A stretch of DNA of 13,812 bases from Actinomycetes bacterium. Lineage in GTDB: Bacteria > Actinomycetota > Thermoleophilia > Solirubrobacterales > Solirubrobacteraceae. The stretch lies in NCBI GenBank assembly GCA_023405705.1, contig JAEXXR010000512.1, forward strand, positions 1 to 13,812. The letters are read 5' to 3'. A program made the position numbers and the translations under genes. This document shows, piece after piece, positions 555-13,169 of the stretch. The stretch's first letter is position 1. The number at the start of each line of letters is the position of its first letter. Under the pieces are notes generated by a model. It made no database searches and was not told the DNA's origin. It saw nothing but the letters and a program-made list of their open reading frames with translations.

Positions 555-584
555 TTGCGGAATGTGAATGAGATCCATTATCGT
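555..584 (+). promoter_or_regulatory. Putative promoter for the exported-protein operon
   Basis: The 280-bp gap between the divergent genes contains an unusually AT-rich patch at about 561-597. Within it, TTGCGG (555-560) and TATCGT (579-584) are spaced by 18 bp and make a plausible -35/-10 pair for the gene starting at 752. That would give a 5' leader of roughly 160 bases. The rest of the gap (588-739) is ordinary GC-rich DNA in which I see no gene. The call rests on spacing and composition only. Confidence 0.35.
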
Positions 585-751
585 TTTATTCGTTGCACGG
601 CTCGGGGCATGTGCGGCCAGCTCGGGGGATCCGCGCGGCCGCCTGACGTGGTCGACCACGGCCCGCGCCGCTGCATCGCCAGCCGTTCCGCCGGCGGCCT
701 GGACCGCGGCCGCGCCACCGGCCCATCGTCAGCTCATCGAAAGGAACGCTC

Positions 752-1405
752 GTGAAGAGCTTCAAGAGACGTGCCGCAGCGCTCGCTTCAGGGGGACTGT
801 GCGTGGGCGCGCTGCTCGCGTCGGCCGGTCCCGCACAGGCGGTCAACCAGATCTCCTCGGGGCACATCGACGGGGTCACCGTCACGTGCAGAAACACCGG
901 CGGGACGATCACCTACGACGTGTTCACGACCATCGACGGCAACCCGCACGGCGCCGATCGGGTCGACACCGGCTCCGGCACCGGCCAGATCGGCGACTAC
1001 CTCTTCCTCCACGACGCCTCGGACTCGCCCAGCGCCGTCAGATGGATAAGAGCGTGGCAGGAGTACCTCGTCGGCGGAAGCGGCAGATTCGCCGACATCG
1101 GCTTCACCTACGACTGCGCCGACAGCGGCGCGGCCGACCAGGTGACCATCGCGATCGACGAGGACCTCCCCGCCGACGACCTGTGGGCGGTGACGGTGGC
1201 CGGCACGGCGACCAACACCGACGGCACGAGCGTGATCACGCTCCCGCGCACCGGCTCCAACCATCACGTGCACGGCAACTGGTACTTCGAGGCGCCCCTG
1301 TTCGACCAGGACGACCACGAGATCGCGTTCGACGTGACGATCAACAGCAGACCGATTCCCACCACCGCGACGATCGGACCGGTCCACATCCGCGTCCAGC
1401 CCTGA
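752..1405 (+). CDS. Exported 217-aa protein, small relative of the choice-of-anchor M domain
   Basis: The start is GTG at 752, chosen because AAAGGA (740-745) lies six bases upstream and the N-terminus is a textbook Sec signal peptide. That peptide has KSFKRR, then a hydrophobic ALASGGLCVGALLASAG, then PAQA with likely cleavage after residue 30. The mature protein of about 187 aa starts with an SSGHIDGV segment like the 'GHxD' opening of actinobacterial surface repeats. Near residue 173 it carries HVHGNWYF, close to the HxHxNWxF signature of that domain. Two cysteines (about C46 and C122) could form a disulfide. No membrane anchor or sorting signal is visible, so it is probably secreted or held by a partner. 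It is followed after 86 bp by the large repeat protein on the same strand, so co-transcription and joint action at the cell surface are likely. The domain relationship is my reading of short motifs. Confidence 0.8.
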   Translation: MKSFKRRAAALASGGLCVGALLASAGPAQAVNQISSGHIDGVTVTCRNTGGTITYDVFTTIDGNPHGADRVDTGSGTGQIGDYLFLHDASDSPSAVRWIRAWQEYLVGGSGRFADIGFTYDCADSGAADQVTIAIDEDLPADDLWAVTVAGTATNTDGTSVITLPRTGSNHHVHGNWYFEAPLFDQDDHEIAFDVTINSRPIPTTATIGPVHIRVQP

Positions 1406-1477
1406 TCCGGCCGGTCGGCGGCAGGCGTCCGCACGGCGCCTCCCGCCGGCCGCCGGTCTGTGTCAACGCTCCCCCTC

Positions 1478-1483
1478 GAGAGG
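1478..1483 (+). promoter_or_regulatory. Ribosome binding site fixing the start of the repeat protein
   Basis: GAGAGG lies eight bases before ATG 1492. The reading frame is open far upstream (to 568), but that stretch overlaps the 217-aa gene in another frame and is arginine-rich shadow sequence. This site plus the signal peptide directly after it place the true start at 1492. Confidence 0.65.
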
Positions 1484-1491
1484 TCCAATCG

Positions 1492-6220
<4,729 letters not shown>

Positions 6221-6228
6221 GACGGAGT

Positions 6229-6533
6229 CGAGCGCGCGGCTTGCGCGGCTCGTCTGCGCCGAGGTCGACGAGCTGGGCGTGGCCGGCGTCGAGACGATCG
6301 CCCGTCAACTGCACGAGCAGCAGGTCGCTGAGATCGCGGCGGCGATCGGCGCCGTGGCCGAGCGATACGAGAAGCGTCCGCCCGTGATCGCGCTCGGCAC
6401 CGGCGCCGCCATCGCACGCGAGGCCGCGGAGGTCGCCGGCGTGAGGATCGCCGAGCCCGGCCCGCCGTGGACCATGCTCGCCGCCGAGGTCGCCCCCGCC
6501 GTCGCGCTGTCGCTGCTGAGCCGCGATGGCTGA
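6229..6533 (+). pseudogene. C-terminal fragment of a hydantoinase-like 'H4MPT-linked C1 transfer' protein (MfnF-like)
   Basis: About 100 residues in one frame, from roughly ARLARLVCAEVDELG to SLLSRDG and TGA (6531-6533), look like the C-terminal end of the hydantoinase/ASKHA-type family known as the H4MPT-linked C1 transfer pathway protein (TIGR03123; archaeal MfnF). Landmarks are a helix with IARQLHEQQVAEIAAAI, then a PPVIALGTGAAIAREAAE strand-loop-helix that resembles the sugar-kinase-fold glycine loop, and a final APAVALSLL helix. The N-terminal two thirds are missing. The frame continues upstream to 6087 only across antisense dehydrogenase sequence. Its last eight bases overlap the start of the kinase gene, an arrangement of translational coupling. 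Pairing with an MfnE-like kinase supports the family call; the N-terminal loss makes function unlikely. Confidence 0.6.
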
Positions 6534-7203
6534 GTCCACGCCGCTCCCGCGCGTCACCTCGGCAGCCGCGCCCGCGCCGCTCCCGCTTGTCGTCAAGATC
6601 GGCGGCGGCCTGCTCGCGGCGAGCGGCGCCGACGATGTCCGCGCGTTCGCCGCCGCGCTCGCCGACGCGGCCACGACCCGGCCCGTCGCGATCGTGCCCG
6701 GCGGCCCATTCGCCGATGCGGTGCGGGAGGCCGATCGCACCGTCGGTCTCAGCGACGACGCCGCCGACCGCCTGGCGATCCTCGCAATGGATCAGTTCGG
6801 CCACCTCCTGCTCGACTTGCCTCCCGACGCCTCGGCCACGACCTCGCTCGATCCGGTCGGCTGGGATGCCGGCCGCCTCACCGTCCTCCTCCCCGCCGCC
6901 CGCCTGCTCGCCGAGCGTCCGCTGCCCGCGAGCTGGGACGCCACCTCCGACTCGCTCGTCGTCTGGATCGCCGCCACCGCCGGCGCCCGCCTCCTGCTCG
7001 CCAAGCCCGTCGCAGGTCTGCGCTCCGACTGGCCGTCCGAGACCTCTCTCTCCCCCCCGACGCCCTCGCCGCCCTCCAGGCTGCCGGCGTCGCCCGCGTC
7101 ATCGACCCCTGGTTCCCCACCGCCCTGCGCCGCTTCCCGATCGACGCCGCGCTCGCCGACGGCCGCGACCCCGCCGCCTTTGCCGCGGCAGTTCCGATTC
7201 TGA
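6526..7203 (+). pseudogene. Amino-acid-kinase-family protein (MfnE-like), frameshifted near the C-terminus
   Basis: ATG 6526 overlaps the previous stop by eight bases. The product shows LPLVVKIGGGLLA (about residues 19-31, phosphate-binding glycine loop; the usual Ser of GGS is Gly), AIVPGGPFADAVREADRTVG (55-74) and LAILAMDQFGHLLLDL. This set fits the amino-acid-kinase-fold enzyme of methanofuran synthesis ([5-(aminomethyl)furan-3-yl]methyl phosphate kinase, MfnE). After about residue 176 the frame turns into Pro/Ser-rich nonsense. Shifting at the C7 run (7052-7058) restores LAALQAAGVARVIDPWFP and DGRDPAAFAAAV, so one C is missing or was mis-called. Even when corrected, the frame has no stop until 7380-7382 and homology fades near 7195. 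The natural end therefore seems to have been replaced by the lower-GC block. Frame as written ends at TGA 7201-7203. Function is from recalled family motifs. Confidence 0.65.
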
Positions 7204-10200
7204 GGTGGCTGCGACGACCTTTGTTCGACCTTCTTCCGGCTGATGTTTCGAGCCCGCTCGGTACGCTCGTCGGATGCCAGCGTGGGATGAAACTCGGAAG
7301 CGACTTCTGGCTTGGACGAACGGATCCTCACAGGCCGAGCATCTCGCGGCTCAGGTGCTGCTCGCGGATGGTTTCCGGGTAGACCCGAGCCACCCGCTGG
7401 GAGGTCCCGACGGCGCTGCTGACGCATTGGCCGAACGTGACGGACTGCGCTGGGTGATGGCCGCGTACTTTCCTCGCGATCAGCAGCCGTTTACCCAGAT
7501 ACGGGCCAAGGTCGAGTCAGACTTCGCTGGCGTCGCGACAAATAGGGCGGATGCTCTGGTGTTCGTCACCAACCAGGAGATTCGTCGCAGCGAGCGCCGG
7601 CAGCTGCAGGAGACAGTCGCAGGACGGATCGAGCTCTATCACCTCGAGCGCGTCAACACGATCCTCAGCCAACCGAGTATGGCGCGCCTTCGCCGTCAAT
7701 ACCTGGGAATCGACTCCGACCACCGCGAGGCCGCGCTGGAGGCGGTCACCTCGTTCGGAGCGAGAACCCGACTGGCGGCGCAGCGCAAGCGCCACCCTAC
7801 CGTCACCGGCCGTGACCTGGAGCTCGCAGCGCTCGCCGCTGCGACGCCCGGTCTCACATTGATCGAAGGTCCCTCATGGAGTGGAAAGACCGCGCTGTTG
7901 ACGGAGTTCTGCCACCGACACCCTTCAACTGTGGTTCATTTCTTCGACCTCGGGTGCACGACGTTGAGTGAGTGCGCCGATGTACTCGCATCTCAGCTCG
8001 CCCTCGGCGGTCCGGCGCCGTCGGGTTCGGACCCTGTCGAAGGGCTGCGACGCCTCTCGGCGTTCGTCGCGACGGCGGACGCAAGCCCTCCGATCGTCGT
8101 CGTCGACGCCATCGACGAAGCTGACGAACCACGGCGGGTCTTGGAGGCGCTTGCGCAGATGGCGCGCCAGGGGCTGGTCGTCGTCGCCTCGATCAATCCG
8201 CGAGCTTCGATTCCGACCGAGGAAATCGCCGACACGTCGATGCGGCTCGAACCGCTGGCGATCTCTTCCGCCAACGAGCGTGACGCCCGCCGCTACGTGC
8301 GTGATGTCACGCAGGCGAGCGATCTCACCCTGTCTGCGTTCGCTGTGCTCTCCGTCGCTCTCGGCCCGATCACGCGCAGTGATGTCGCTGCGGCGCTCGG
8401 CGTTACGGTAGGCGCCGTCAACGCGGCGCTCGACAAGCACAGACGGCACCTCATCGACGACGCCGACGGCATACAGCTCGCGCACCGGACATTGTCAAGA
8501 TGGCTGGCCGACTCCCCGGAAGTCTCGACGACGAAGGCGACAGCTGCCCTTGAGGCATGGGCGGACGAATGGAGCGAACGCGGCTGGCCTGCCGACACCC
8601 CGGCGTATCTGCTCTCGTACTGGCCACGCCACCTCGGACACGATGGGTGGCAGCAGGCGCGGCTGCTCACCGACTCGCGTTTCGCGAAATGCTTTCGAGC
8701 CCGTTCCGGTCCCCGCCGCGTTCGCGAGGCGTACCTCGCAGCCGTCGTTGCACTCGATCCACGGTCAGCCAGCAAGCCGAGCGACTGGCTCGGGCTCGCG
8801 AGCGACCTGCTCTTCGCAGCACTCATCATCTGCCGCTCCTACACGGCGACCATCTCGTCGGAGTTGATCGCAGCGCTCAACGCGAGCGGGCATCATCAGG
8901 AAGCGTTCGAACTGGCCACGGTATCTGGCAATCTGCTGCTGCTGCAGACGTTCGCGCTCGGCAGCCCGCCGCTGTTCAGCCATACCGCTGTTCGGTGCCT
9001 CCAAGAGTACGCCGAGCAGGGGTCCCCCAGGCGCGTCCACGATCTGAACCTCGTGTTCGCCAGAACGTACCCCGACGTCGCGATCGAGATGATGCGGCTG
9101 ACGTCGAGACCCACCCGATCTCACTACGGAATGCTTCAGGACTGCGTCGAGACGCTCGCCCGGGAGGAGTGGATTCAGGATGCCCAGATCATCGCGCTGG
9201 CCGGTGGCCTCCCACGCTGGCGCGTTCTCGCGGGGATCGCGAGCGTCCGCGATGATGCGATCCCCGCCGCTGTCCAGGCAGCGCTGACGGAGTCCGGCGG
9301 CGACTTCGACGTCACGCTGGGAGCCGATCTCGCGGTCCGCTGCGCTCGTGTAGGTCGAATGCACGATTGCAGACGGCTCCTCGAACTTGTCGAAGGAGCT
9401 GCGTTTGATCCGGCTTGGGCTCGACTGCCAATCATCGTCGCACTCGCTGCCGAACATGGCGAGCATCTGTCCGAGGCGCTCGAAGCGATCGGCGCTGGAC
9501 GGCCGATCAGCACCGACCTCCTGCTGACTCTGTACCGCGCCCGACCGGAGACACGAGACGCCGTTCTGGCGCACGCGTCCAAAGAGCCGCTGTTCGCCAC
9601 CAGCGGGCAGGAGTCGGCGATCTTCGAAGCAGTGGCCGCTGCGGAGTCACCTCGCGTCGCCTTGGAGTTGGTCGACCGGAGCATCAATTCCGACGCCGCA
9701 AAGCTCGGGATCGTGCGAGCAGCCGTTGCAGCGGACGACTACGCACTCGCTGAGGAGGTCACCGCCACGATCGAGCGGTCCGCGATCCATGTGCTCGCGC
9801 TCGCAGAGCTCCTGCCCGTGCGGGAGTCGGCCTCGAACGAGATCCTGGAACGGGTTACGGACGCGGCCGAGGTCCTTTCGGCAGCACCCTTCGCGACCGC
9901 CAAGCTGGCCGCACTCGCCGTCTCCCGCGGGACGCGGAGTGCTGACGAGATGGTCGCGGTGACAGATCGCTTCGCCAGTCGGCCGCTCAGAGAGGAGCTC
10001 GCGGCCCTCTGCTGCGTCCGCGAGCCGGATCGCGTTGAAGAGGTTGCAGCGCGACTCGGCCTGCTCAGCTCCGAAGCAAGCGAAGGTCCGCTCGAGAGCG
10101 AAGACACGTATGTCTCGTCCGTCTCCGTGTTCGGCCGTTCGGAGCCGGCCACGACCGAGCCGCTCACCGTCCGAGCGCATTTGACCGGGTGCGCTGCGCA

Positions 10201-11475
10201 GGCCGATGCCCTTGACGTCTGCTGGACTCTGATCGAGACCGCACGGTCTCGGCAGGAACGATTCCAAGCCCTGGTCGCGTTGGTCGAGGGCCAGCCGACC
10301 CAGCTGGAGCCGGCACTGCGCTACCTCCAATGCCTCGGTCAACAGCCAGGTCGCGGCGAAATCGAGGTCGAACTCGTGCTTGCGGCGATGCGAGGCCTAC
10401 CGCTTGCGGAGGCCGTGCAGCGTGTGACCGGAGTCTCTCCTCAGTCCCTTCACGACGCCGTCGCGACTCTCCTGCTCGCGCGAGTCGCGGACGAACTCGG
10501 TCGCGACGCGGCAGAGCAGCTCGCGAGTTCGTGCACCACCGCGTTCGGGCGTTTCAGCGCCCTCGGAGTTCTGGCCGACCGCGTCGATCGCAGCTTCGCC
10601 GACGCTGCTGTCGAGCGCTTCCGCGCCCTTCCAGAGGCCGACCGGTGTCTGCTTCTGCAGCTTTCTCCTACGCTGCCCGACTACCTGATCGAGTCCCTCG
10701 AGGCGACGGCGATGGACCTCGACTGCGCCGCGAAGCTGGTGCCGGCGGTGACGAAGCTCCCTGTGACCGCGCAGTTGCGCAGTCACGCGCTGGACGTCGT
10801 GCTGACCGAGCCCGACGTGATCCGTCGCGCGCATCAGCTCGCCGCCCTGTCACGCTGGTCCGGCACAGTGCTGCCTGACGCAGTCGCCGCGCTCAACGAG
10901 GCCATCGACGCGGCGACCCCGGCAGACAACGCACGGGCCGTCGATGTCACGACGCTCTGTCAGCTCGCGGACGATGGATTGATGCTCGCGCGGCTCGACC
11001 CCGAGTTGTTCGACTCTGCCCGTCGGTTCGCCGAGAACGTCAGTAAGACTTTGCGAGGGACCGTGCTCGTCCCGCCCCTGCTGAACCACATCGATCTGCT
11101 CGCCGACATCTCGCTCGAGGAGGCACTCGCCGCCGTCAACAGAGAGCAGATGTCCCACACAGCCGCGGTCAGGCTTCTGCTCTGGGCGAAAGACGGCGGC
11201 TCCGCCGAAGTGCTCGACATCGCCACGAAGATCGACGACGACTTCGCGGCGGCATCGGGGCTGTGGGCCGCAGCGGGGGACGAGGCCGAGCTCCGGCATG
11301 CCGCGTGGGAGCGAGCACGCACCATTCGTTCGCACGACTCGCGCACGAACGCTCTCCTCGCGATGGCCTCTCCCGATGAGTTCGCCGAGGTCTGCTGCGA
11401 GGCAGCTCAGTACGAGGTGGCAGCGCTGATGCGGAACGAGTGGACGGCTGACAGAAGAGACGACCAAGCCGCGGC
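7196..11475. other. Lower-GC block carrying the STAND NTPase, probably acquired
   Basis: Sampled 60-base rows in this block count 37, 40, 36 and 37 G+C, against 45 and 47 in the surface-protein gene. Codon third positions are visibly less G/C-biased. The left edge falls where the kinase homology ends (about 7195). The right edge falls where antisense moaA homology begins (about 11476). I found no integrase, transposase or obvious terminal repeat, so the mechanism of arrival is unknown. The boundaries are estimates. Confidence 0.5.
7262..7267 (+). promoter_or_regulatory. Putative -10 element suggesting a leaderless transcript
   Basis: TACGCT matches the actinobacterial TANNNT -10 pattern and ends six bases before ATG 7274, the distance expected if transcription starts at the A of the start codon. 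No Shine-Dalgarno-like purine run precedes this ATG, consistent with a leaderless mRNA. A convincing -35 at the right spacing is not visible. Confidence 0.35.
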
Positions 11476-11518
11476 TCAGCCGCCGATCGCGCTCATCGAG
11501 CGAGCCGGCTGGACGTAG
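7274..11518 (+). CDS. STAND-type P-loop NTPase with degenerate restriction-endonuclease-like N-terminal domain
   Basis: The product is an intact 1414-aa protein. Residues about 15-147 resemble a restriction-endonuclase-like sensor or effector domain: LGGPDGAAD (D46, D50), RWVMAAYFP (60-67) where a nuclease would have D/E-x-K, LVFVTNQEI (about 95-103) and an RRQYLGID end. No lysine follows the second acidic position, so catalysis is doubtful. Residues about 195-340 form the NTPase: Walker A GPSWSGKT (199-206), Walker B IVVVDAIDEAD (D278, D281, E282) and a VVASINPR segment near 305. Residues about 349-415 look like the winged helix of STAND proteins, ending HRTLSRWLAD. The remaining 1000 residues are Leu/Ala-rich helical pairs, probably an alpha-solenoid that senses a ligand. 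There is no signal peptide or membrane segment, so it should be cytoplasmic. Architecture and isolation in a lower-GC block suggest an immunity or stress NTPase. Some transcription-regulator STANDs look similar, but no DNA-binding effector is seen. The last 13 codons are antisense to the end of moaA. Confidence 0.8.
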   Translation: MPAWDETRKRLLAWTNGSSQAEHLAAQVLLADGFRVDPSHPLGGPDGAADALAERDGLRWVMAAYFPRDQQPFTQIRAKVESDFAGVATNRADALVFVTNQEIRRSERRQLQETVAGRIELYHLERVNTILSQPSMARLRRQYLGIDSDHREAALEAVTSFGARTRLAAQRKRHPTVTGRDLELAALAAATPGLTLIEGPSWSGKTALLTEFCHRHPSTVVHFFDLGCTTLSECADVLASQLALGGPAPSGSDPVEGLRRLSAFVATADASPPIVVVDAIDEADEPRRVLEALAQMARQGLVVVASINPRASIPTEEIADTSMRLEPLAISSANERDARRYVRDVTQASDLTLSAFAVLSVALGPITRSDVAAALGVTVGAVNAALDKHRRHLIDDADGIQLAHRTLSRWLADSPEVSTTKATAALEAWADEWSERGWPADTPAYLLSYWPRHLGHDGWQQARLLTDSRFAKCFRARSGPRRVREAYLAAVVALDPRSASKPSDWLGLASDLLFAALIICRSYTATISSELIAALNASGHHQEAFELATVSGNLLLLQTFALGSPPLFSHTAVRCLQEYAEQGSPRRVHDLNLVFARTYPDVAIEMMRLTSRPTRSHYGMLQDCVETLAREEWIQDAQIIALAGGLPRWRVLAGIASVRDDAIPAAVQAALTESGGDFDVTLGADLAVRCARVGRMHDCRRLLELVEGAAFDPAWARLPIIVALAAEHGEHLSEALEAIGAGRPISTDLLLTLYRARPETRDAVLAHASKEPLFATSGQESAIFEAVAAAESPRVALELVDRSINSDAAKLGIVRAAVAADDYALAEEVTATIERSAIHVLALAELLPVRESASNEILERVTDAAEVLSAAPFATAKLAALAVSRGTRSADEMVAVTDRFASRPLREELAALCCVREPDRVEEVAARLGLLSSEASEGPLESEDTYVSSVSVFGRSEPATTEPLTVRAHLTGCAAQADALDVCWTLIETARSRQERFQALVALVEGQPTQLEPALRYLQCLGQQPGRGEIEVELVLAAMRGLPLAEAVQRVTGVSPQSLHDAVATLLLARVADELGRDAAEQLASSCTTAFGRFSALGVLADRVDRSFADAAVERFRALPEADRCLLLQLSPTLPDYLIESLEATAMDLDCAAKLVPAVTKLPVTAQLRSHALDVVLTEPDVIRRAHQLAALSRWSGTVLPDAVAALNEAIDAATPADNARAVDVTTLCQLADDGLMLARLDPELFDSARRFAENVSKTLRGTVLVPPLLNHIDLLADISLEEALAAVNREQMSHTAAVRLLLWAKDGGSAEVLDIATKIDDDFAAASGLWAAAGDEAELRHAAWERARTIRSHDSRTNALLAMASPDEFAEVCCEAAQYEVAALMRNEWTADRRDDQAAAQPPIALIERAGWT

Positions 11519-12056
11519 CCGGGATCGTTGACCTGGTGCTTGAGCTCTTTGCGTCAGACGGCGTCGCAGATGTTCTGGACGAGCGCGTCGTCGTCGGCGC
11601 CGGCGCGCATCGGGTCACGCAGGCTGGTCTCGTTGTGGGAGAAAAGGCAGGTGCGGAGGTTGCCGTCGGATGCGGTTGCAGTCGCCGCAGAACGGCTCTG
11701 AGACGGGTTGATAAAGCCGATCCGGTGCTGGCCGTCGGCGAAGCGGTAGACGCGCGCGGTCGCTGAGGGCTCGCGCGGCTCCGGTTCGAGCGGGTGGCGC
11801 GCGTGGATGAGCGCGCGCAGCTCCTCGCGGGTCAGGACCTGCTCGCGTGACCACGCGTGGTCGGCGTCGAGCGGCATGTACTCGATGAAGCGGACCTCGT
11901 ACGGATGCTCGCGAGCGAACGCGGCGAAGCGCAGCGCCTCGTCCTCGGTGAAGTCGCGCAACGCGACCGCGTTGACCTTGATCGGATGTGCCTCCCCTCG
12001 AAGAAGCGATCGCGCTGGAGCGAGTCGATCGAGACGTTGAAGCGATTTGGGCGAGT
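11476..12056 (-). pseudogene. moaA: moaA remnant (GTP 3',8-cyclase, molybdenum cofactor synthesis), multiply damaged
   Basis: Minus-strand frames give NRFNVSIDSLQRDRFFE, then HPIKVNAVALRDFTEDEA, VRFIEYMPLDADHAW, GFINP, EPFCGDCNRIR, SDGNLRTCLFSHNETSLRDP, KELKHQVNDPGYVQP and finally MSAIGG with TGA at 11476-11478. That is the second half of radical-SAM MoaA, including its C-terminal Fe-S cysteines and the terminal GG. Damage includes loss of the N-terminal half with the CxxxCxxC cluster motif; an internal gap of about 25 codons near 11993-11997; a missing base near 11705 followed by about 11 missing near 11668, which together skip the CGDC cysteines in the long frame; and TGA where Trp is expected in DAV-W-RKELK. 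The longest surviving frame is 11554-11961. It cannot make functional MoaA. It is convergent with, and overlapped by, the STAND gene. Confidence 0.88.
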
Positions 12057-12085
12057 CCCCTATATTTCAAGAATAAGACTCAATC
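12057..12085. other. AT-rich junction between the moaA remnant and surface gene 3
   Basis: The stretch from about 12060 (CTATATTTCAAGAATAAGAC) is strikingly AT-rich for this DNA. moaA homology ends just left of it, and a signal-peptide-like frame without a start codon begins inside it (KNKTQS at 12069 onwards). It marks the point where both divergent genes have lost their 5' ends. Confidence 0.5.
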
Positions 12086-13169
12086 TGTTGTCGTGGTCGT
12101 CGCGCTGTGCGCGCTGGGCCTGTTCGCAGGTCCGGCCATCGGACGGGCCGGCGCCGGCCCCGACCGAGTACCGCGTCATCTCCCGCGTCCACACCGACGC
12201 GATCTCGACCTTCTTGGACGACGGGCAGCTCCAGCTCGGCGCGAAGGTCGACGTCGATGAGCAGTTCGGCGTCCGCTTCGCTGCCGAGCAGATCTGGCTC
12301 CACCTCGAGGAGGAAGCGCGGACGCTCGTGCCGGCCGACCGCGAATTCATCGCGCCGATAGGGAGCGAGGTCTGGATCGCCGACGAGGTCAACCCCGGAC
12401 CGGGCCGCCTCTGGCCGGGCTTCTCGACCGAGTCGGTGCCGGCCGACGCCGTCACCGGCGACACGACGCTGAGATTGACGGAGGTCGACGGCCCCGGGCA
12501 GGTCGAGCTGTTCACCGTCCAGCTCGGCGCGGTCAGACGTCTTTGGTCGTCGAGAGATGCCGCGCACCGCGCGTTCGCGCTGCCGCCGGGAACTCACCGG
12601 CACGCGAACTGGGCCTTCACGGCCACCGGCAGCTACCGGATCGCCGTCGAGGCGACGGCGACCGTCAACGGCCAGCCTCAGAGCGCCCAGGCGACCTACA
12701 CCTTCGTCGTCGTCGGCGACGTGCCGGCGGCCGTCAGCACGACCACCGCACTGACCGCGAGCGCCTCCACGATCGCCGCCGGCAGAGCGCTGACGCTCGA
12801 CGCGACCGTCACCCCCTCCGCCGCCGCAGGCGCTGTCGAGTTCCGCGACGGCGGCGCCGTGCTCGGGCACGCCGCTGTCGAGGACGGCAGCGCGACGCTG
12901 CCGGTCGCGCTGAGCAGACTCGGGACCCGCTCGCTGACGGCGCACTTCGTCCCCGCCGTCGCCAACCGCTTCGGCGTGTCGGCCTCCGATCCCGTGAACG
13001 TCTCGGTCGTCGAGAACGACGGCGCCGAGCCGTTCGGGATCGTCGGCGTCGAGACGACCTACCAGCCCGGCGAGATCATCGAGCTGCGGCTCACGGGCGC
13101 GACGCTGGAGCCGGGGCAGACGACGCTCTGGCGGATGTGACCCCAACCGCGACAGCTACACGGCGGGAG

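Follow-up and report, generated by a model that had tools for sequence, protein, structure and literature searches.

Can an Mrr-like domain without a lysine at the expected place in its catalytic strand still serve as the effector of a bacterial immune protein? The question is raised by one gene in contig JAEXXR010000512.1 (assembly GCA_023405705.1, family Solirubrobacteraceae), whose whole stretch of 13,812 nucleotides is here called the window. The gene encodes a STAND NTPase in which a predicted PD-(D/E)XK domain precedes the NTPase core and a long, putatively helical and presumably sensory region. The best explanation, held with somewhat more conviction than doubt, is that of a single-gene STAND-type conflict or immunity protein with a rewired PD-(D/E)XK head, in which sensing would lead to oligomerisation and then to nucleic-acid cutting. 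The open reading frame (ORF) that a sequence-only reading of this DNA had proposed is indeed uninterrupted, and it has the lower guanine-plus-cytosine content ascribed to it (66.6%, as against 72.4% upstream and 70.9% downstream). Its ATG start at 7274 is supported because the N-terminal residues align with those of relatives: residues 4-148 are 45-52% identical to theirs, and a DETxxRLxxWT-like stretch opens the relatives as well as the window protein. The database model of the window protein (P0001) places the start later, at M62.

The N-terminal domain and its active site

The nuclease-like character claimed for the N-terminus is borne out by structure prediction, which gives an Mrr-like PD-(D/E)XK fold, and by a weak Pfam Mrr_cat match at residues 20-127 (E 0.0017; 18.9 bits, below the gathering score of 21). 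With the domain alone the match has E 0.0005, just under the cut-off; Mrr_cat is above cut-off for P0006, below it for P0002 and listed for P0013, P0060 and P0110. The predicted fold matches E. coli Mrr, MspJI and AspBHI, all restriction endonucleases of the Mrr-like kind, and hhalign pairs GDGGID of E. coli Mrr with PDGAAD in a short match over motifs I-II (probability 0.6%, E 0.098). Relatives were gathered with residues 1-150 of P0003 (best 120 of 182 proteins listed) and with a 412-residue Rhodococcus plasmid protein (120 of 754 listed; 7996 best candidates scored). Of the 243 proteins collected, which include those of the initial search (11 proteins), all except P0011 carry the domain; the resulting alignment of 242 rows includes the window protein and leaves out P0001, its own copy. 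Median pairwise identity is 0.54 and the minimum 0.37, and the pattern of conservation persists in 33 sequences kept at 60% identity.

Phage records gave no match, solved structures searched by sequence gave nothing useful, and a genome-contig scan for relatives returned one locus. NCBIfam, run on six proteins, has no match inside the domain, and PADLOC, run on nine N-domains, gave nothing consistent (best 4.4e-5, for one member, Aga_REase). No description of the domain or of the architecture was identified in the literature searched. In the accessible part of Kaur et al. 2020 (PMC7159879), "a previously unreported REase clade" is noted; that restriction endonuclease clade may be the same family.

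Within the alignment the acids of motifs I and II are retained (Table 1), and the residues after D46 and D50 read RWVMAAYFP, just as the sequence-only reading had stated. Motif III is different. Position 63 is A in 216 rows, G in 22 and S in 3, and position 65 is Y in 231, H in 4, F in 3 and N in 3, with one gap at each; (E/Q)-x-K is therefore missing from every row with letters there. Compared with E. coli Mrr, the window protein has A-x-Y for Q-x-K (QAK and AAY being paired by eye), and its helix B holds the invariant residues K79 and D83. In that helix (residues 73-89 of the model), positions 79 and 83 alone have zero entropy; positions 74, 75, 77, 78, 81, 82, 85, 88 and 89 range from 2.4 to 3.4 bits. 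K79 lies 16 residues after A63, and D83 one helical turn further. Beyond helix B, position 123 is H except for one E, and R140 stands in 241 of 242 rows, with one K.

Precedents for such a shift exist. In COG4636, according to the available portion of the report (PMC551604), the lysine has shifted from the motif III strand to the adjacent helix (E111 and K127 of all3650, 16 apart), a placement that the N-domain shares as far as sequence spacing goes; the same portion describes Cfr10I and NgoMIV as enzymes in which the acid is the residue that moved. A similar active-site change is given for DUF506, DUF790 and DUF1626 in the accessible text of PMC1913061. In COG4636 the motif III acid (E111) is still in place, as PMC551604 describes; the window family has A, G or S there, and D83 may stand in for it. 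Judged from the alignment, both motif III residues have probably moved to helix B, with K79 as the lysine and D83 as the second acid. A rewired site is more likely than simple loss because K79 and D83 are invariant in helix B. Of the consistent loss of lysine that had been named as supporting evidence, the absence of the motif III lysine holds across the aligned family, but plain loss is probably not what happened; this is the one point at which the earlier interpretation, otherwise largely sound, calls for correction.

The alternative that these residues bring into view is a catalytically dead N-domain, a nucleic-acid-binding or protein-docking adaptor that leaves the damage to a separate enzyme. 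Replacement of both motif III (E/Q)-x-K residues would fit it, as would the high Foldseek rank of RPB5, which the available portion of PMC551604 describes as being without catalytic residues, and the report, in the accessible part of Kaur et al. 2020 (PMC7159879), that many peptidases in effector position are inactive. Certain partners of the domain are, moreover, themselves enzymes, such as the protein kinase in P0116. An adaptor surface would nevertheless hardly need E22, D46, D50, K79, D83, N100, Q101, H123 and R140 to be invariant or nearly so at the median identity given above, and migration of the lysine to the same helix has been published (PMC551604 and PMC1913061, in the parts available). 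The invariance of K79 and D83 weakens a simple "dead nuclease" reading, and an adaptor role is considered unlikely. A long shot is that the same fold carries out another chemistry, cleaving nucleotides or other phosphoesters with the cluster of D46, D50, K79, D83, H123 and N100-Q101; H123 and N100-Q101 are conserved, and a comparison by eye shows nothing that obviously corresponds to them in E. coli Mrr.

The STAND core and its closest relatives

The STAND core, also part of the earlier proposal, is evident from a P-loop and a DxxDE-type Walker B and from the single family that PADLOC recognises, STAND_TPR (PDLC01173; E 5.2e-20 over residues 165-480). Pfam AAA_16 matches residues 177-302 at E 5.6e-6 (27.4 bits, below the cut-off of 32.6). 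The sequence-only reading had recognised no named defence system in the protein; the core does have a named relative in this PADLOC family. The Avs-type plan that had been suggested fares less evenly: the general plan is similar and Avs4 (PDB 8dgf) is the top Foldseek chain for the N-domain model, but no Avs model in PADLOC matches the window protein (up to E 1). The window protein also differs from Avs4 in its replaced motif III residues, and its core is nearer to STAND_TPR. With STAND_TPR it shares the core and the GWPxDTPxYLL signature; it has the Mrr-like domain in place of a helix-turn-helix (HTH). STAND_TPR is described in PADLOC as tied to cas1-less I-E systems in Streptomyces, whereas the eight ORFs scanned in the 13.8-kb window include no cas gene. 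The core is 32% identical to that of P0011 over 303 columns (E 3e-18), and the trypsin-STAND proteins, namely P0011 and relatives from the order to which genome G353 belongs, have the same core branch, with a trypsin-like protease where the window protein has the Mrr-like domain.

With STAND_TPR, two relatives on one G353 contig reach 922 and 758 bits. One of the two adjoins ORFs matching Cas11e, Cas7e, Cas5e and Cas6e, and the other adjoins a helicase (L018:3091-6444) that matches PADLOC MkoC at 220 bits. A core profile, itself built with trypsin and HTH types, has matches at E 1e-10 in 80 of the 343 genomes of the order, G353 included. Thirty core loci were examined, a non-random sample made up of the two from G353 and the 28 next best-scoring; at E 1e-6 their N-termini comprise 10 trypsin, 4 HTH, 4 of a second type and 12 that are none of these. 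Genes matching the G353 cas queries occur at 4 of the 30, the same four that have the HTH type; a further HTH match, the fifth, is weaker (E 3.3e-4; 4.5e-6 as protein) and comes from L066, which has no cas match. The Mrr-like domain matches none of the 30 at E 0.01, while it does match the three N-domain loci of that database. Nine core relatives (L039, L042-L044, L048, L050-L053) have a short N-terminus with no enzyme and a motif like IGVAVTGDHN or VVIGDGN, possibly an adaptor.

The STAND branch swaps its N-terminus, and the window protein thus reads as a shuffled effector joined to such a branch. If this reading is right, whole N-terminal modules (trypsin, HTH, Mrr-like) are exchanged within a branch that has members next to type I-E CRISPR genes, in keeping with the notion that a STAND switch relays the signals of those CRISPR loci. 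In the accessible part of a 2025 review (PMC12231136), the minimal type I-E variants of Streptomyces are noted to neighbour predicted STAND NTPases, with experimental evidence lacking.

Partner domains

The N-domain is likewise joined to different partners. The parts outside it, 244 regions with the window's and P0011's included, form 20 clusters by single linkage at E 1e-6. Since this procedure may separate ATPases that are related, and since P0026 alone accounts for two of the clusters, a count of 19 clusters should not be read as 19 folds. The window's region clusters with P0011 only, in which a trypsin-like protease (Trypsin_2) replaces the N-domain. A P-loop pattern occurs in 94 of 239 C-terminal regions, and the partners that can be named include NB-ARC with TPR; sigma region 4 with NACHT and HEAT repeats; iHD-CE with an HSP90-type part; protein kinase; and pentapeptide repeats. 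At least four switch types are joined to the domain (NB-ARC, NACHT, HSP90-type and the STAND branch with CRISPR-linked members). It is tentatively suggested, with rather more doubt than confidence, that the N-domain serves bacterial conflict proteins as an effector cassette that has been shuffled widely, marked by E22, D46-x3-D50, A-x-Y and K79-x3-D83, one head for many sensors.

The biggest partner cluster consists of 120 proteins (P0124-P0243) with a C-terminal region of 205-350 residues that is without the P-loop pattern and has no Pfam entry among the matches listed.

Proposed mechanism, and what weighs for and against it

If the window protein is an immune NTPase with a rewired nuclease head, its C-terminal helical region would sense an invader or an infection-made ligand, upon which the STAND NTPase would switch and oligomerise; oligomerisation would unite the N-terminal Mrr-like domains, and the resulting cutting of nucleic acid would stop the infected cell, giving the protein an antiphage role. 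In the active site, E22, D46 and D50 would hold the metal, A-x-Y having replaced (E/Q)-x-K, and K79 and D83 of helix B would provide the lysine and the second acid. A large effector family poorly caught by current libraries (patchily by Pfam Mrr_cat, with no consistent model in NCBIfam or PADLOC) would then be added, and with it an example, open to test, of two moves of an active site within the PD-(D/E)XK fold.

A profile built on P0011 and 23 ORFs of the G353 order (24 relatives in all) matches clearly at residues 183-549 (44 bits) and weakly in the later part (<10 bits); none of 20 shuffled C-terminal parts matched it. The alpha-solenoid that had been proposed is in keeping with an AlphaFold2 model of residues 160-1359, which has no strand past about residue 307, the remainder being helical throughout, but the model, built from two sequences, proves little at a predicted local distance difference test (pLDDT) score of 41. 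At that score it was rejected as a query for fold searches.

Genomic context gives a mixed answer to the expectation that homologues would lie in defence islands. Restriction genes lie near 3 of 10 annotated N-domain relatives, with a fourth possible. In the window, the genes around the STAND gene are of metabolic or surface type by Pfam. Such neighbours would suit a STAND protein with an AfsR/SARP-like role in controlling gene expression or development and none in immunity, as would the NB-ARC-TPR partner of P0003, which resembles AfsR (213.7 bits with NCBIfam SARPRegAfsRStmc, whose cut-off is 1430), and the sigma region 4 HTH that adjoins NACHT in P0024. Against this stand the rare occurrence of the family, the presence of homologues on plasmids and viral contigs, some of them beside restriction systems, and the fact that the nearest named relatives of the core are CRISPR-linked STAND proteins. 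Nor is a nuclease fold known to be typical of such regulators, and a regulatory role is judged quite improbable.

Several observations weigh against an immune nuclease as the explanation. The neighbours just mentioned are not defence genes; 7 of the 10 annotated neighbourhoods are without a named restriction system; and the N-domain copies at L022 and L023, two of the three restriction-linked loci, look truncated or split. No assay of the family was found. The STAND_TPR match is distant (69 bits for the window protein, 922 for a close member), no Foldseek match of the N-domain model reached 1e-3, ranks 2 and 3 are RPB5 chains of RNA polymerase, with the same fold and no active site, and the low pLDDT of the helical model makes the sensor fold a low-confidence prediction.

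Features of the window

Table 1. Positions of the gene, its domains and its conserved residues in the window.
Feature	Positions	Strand	Basis
STAND NTPase gene	7274..11518	+	Uninterrupted ORF, 1414 aa, ATG start; homology over N-domain and core
Mrr-like PD-(D/E)XK domain, non-canonical active site	7274..7714	+	Residues 1-147
E22, motif I acid, helix A	7337..7339	+	E in 238/242 rows, 4 gaps
D46 and D50, motif II (PDGAAD)	7409..7423	+	241/242 rows each, one gap
A63-A64-Y65, motif III strand, at (E/Q)-x-K place	7460..7468	+	Alignment
K79 and D83, candidate catalytic residues moved to helix B (motif IV)	7508..7522	+	241/242 rows each, one gap
N100-Q101, invariant, directly after strand 4	7571..7576	+	241/242 rows each, one gap
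H123-L-E-R126 motif, after strand 5	7640..7651	+	H in 241, E in 233 and R in 238 of 242 rows
P-loop GPSWSGKT, residues 199-206	7868..7891	+	Aligned with P0011, P0244, P0245
Walker B VVVDAIDE, residues 275-282	8096..8119	+	Aligned with P0011, P0244, P0245
Putative winged helix, residues ~351-400	8324..8473	+	Aligns with P0011; Pfam MarR_2 E 0.78 only
GWPADTPAYLL, residues 437-447, STAND-branch signature	8582..8614	+	Conserved with P0011, P0244, P0245
Helical region, presumed sensor, residues 481-1414	8714..11515	+	Low-confidence model; weak profile similarity

The scan of eight ORFs in the window revealed no further NTPase, and transfer RNA and Rfam scans of the 13.8-kb window found nothing. 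At 7000-11700, promoters (0, shuffle mean 0.2) and terminators (2, shuffle mean 1.7) are at about shuffle level. The amino-acid-kinase gene 5' of the STAND gene (6526-7203) seems broken, with a partial Pfam match and a kinase-like reading apparently carried on in another frame at about 6940-7240, through sequencing error or decay. On the minus strand, MoaA at 11554-12070 is seen as a C-terminal piece only (Mob_synth_C), and its cysteine motif appears out of frame with the parts on either side. A fragment at 5651-6100 (minus strand), for whose frame Pfam gave no match, begins LVNNAG, a motif that suggests a short-chain dehydrogenase remnant. Finally, Ig-like Big_3_5 ORFs at 568-5592 and 11857-13140 (plus strand) flank the STAND-gene block on both sides, and an HxNWAFT-like motif recurs in those on either side.
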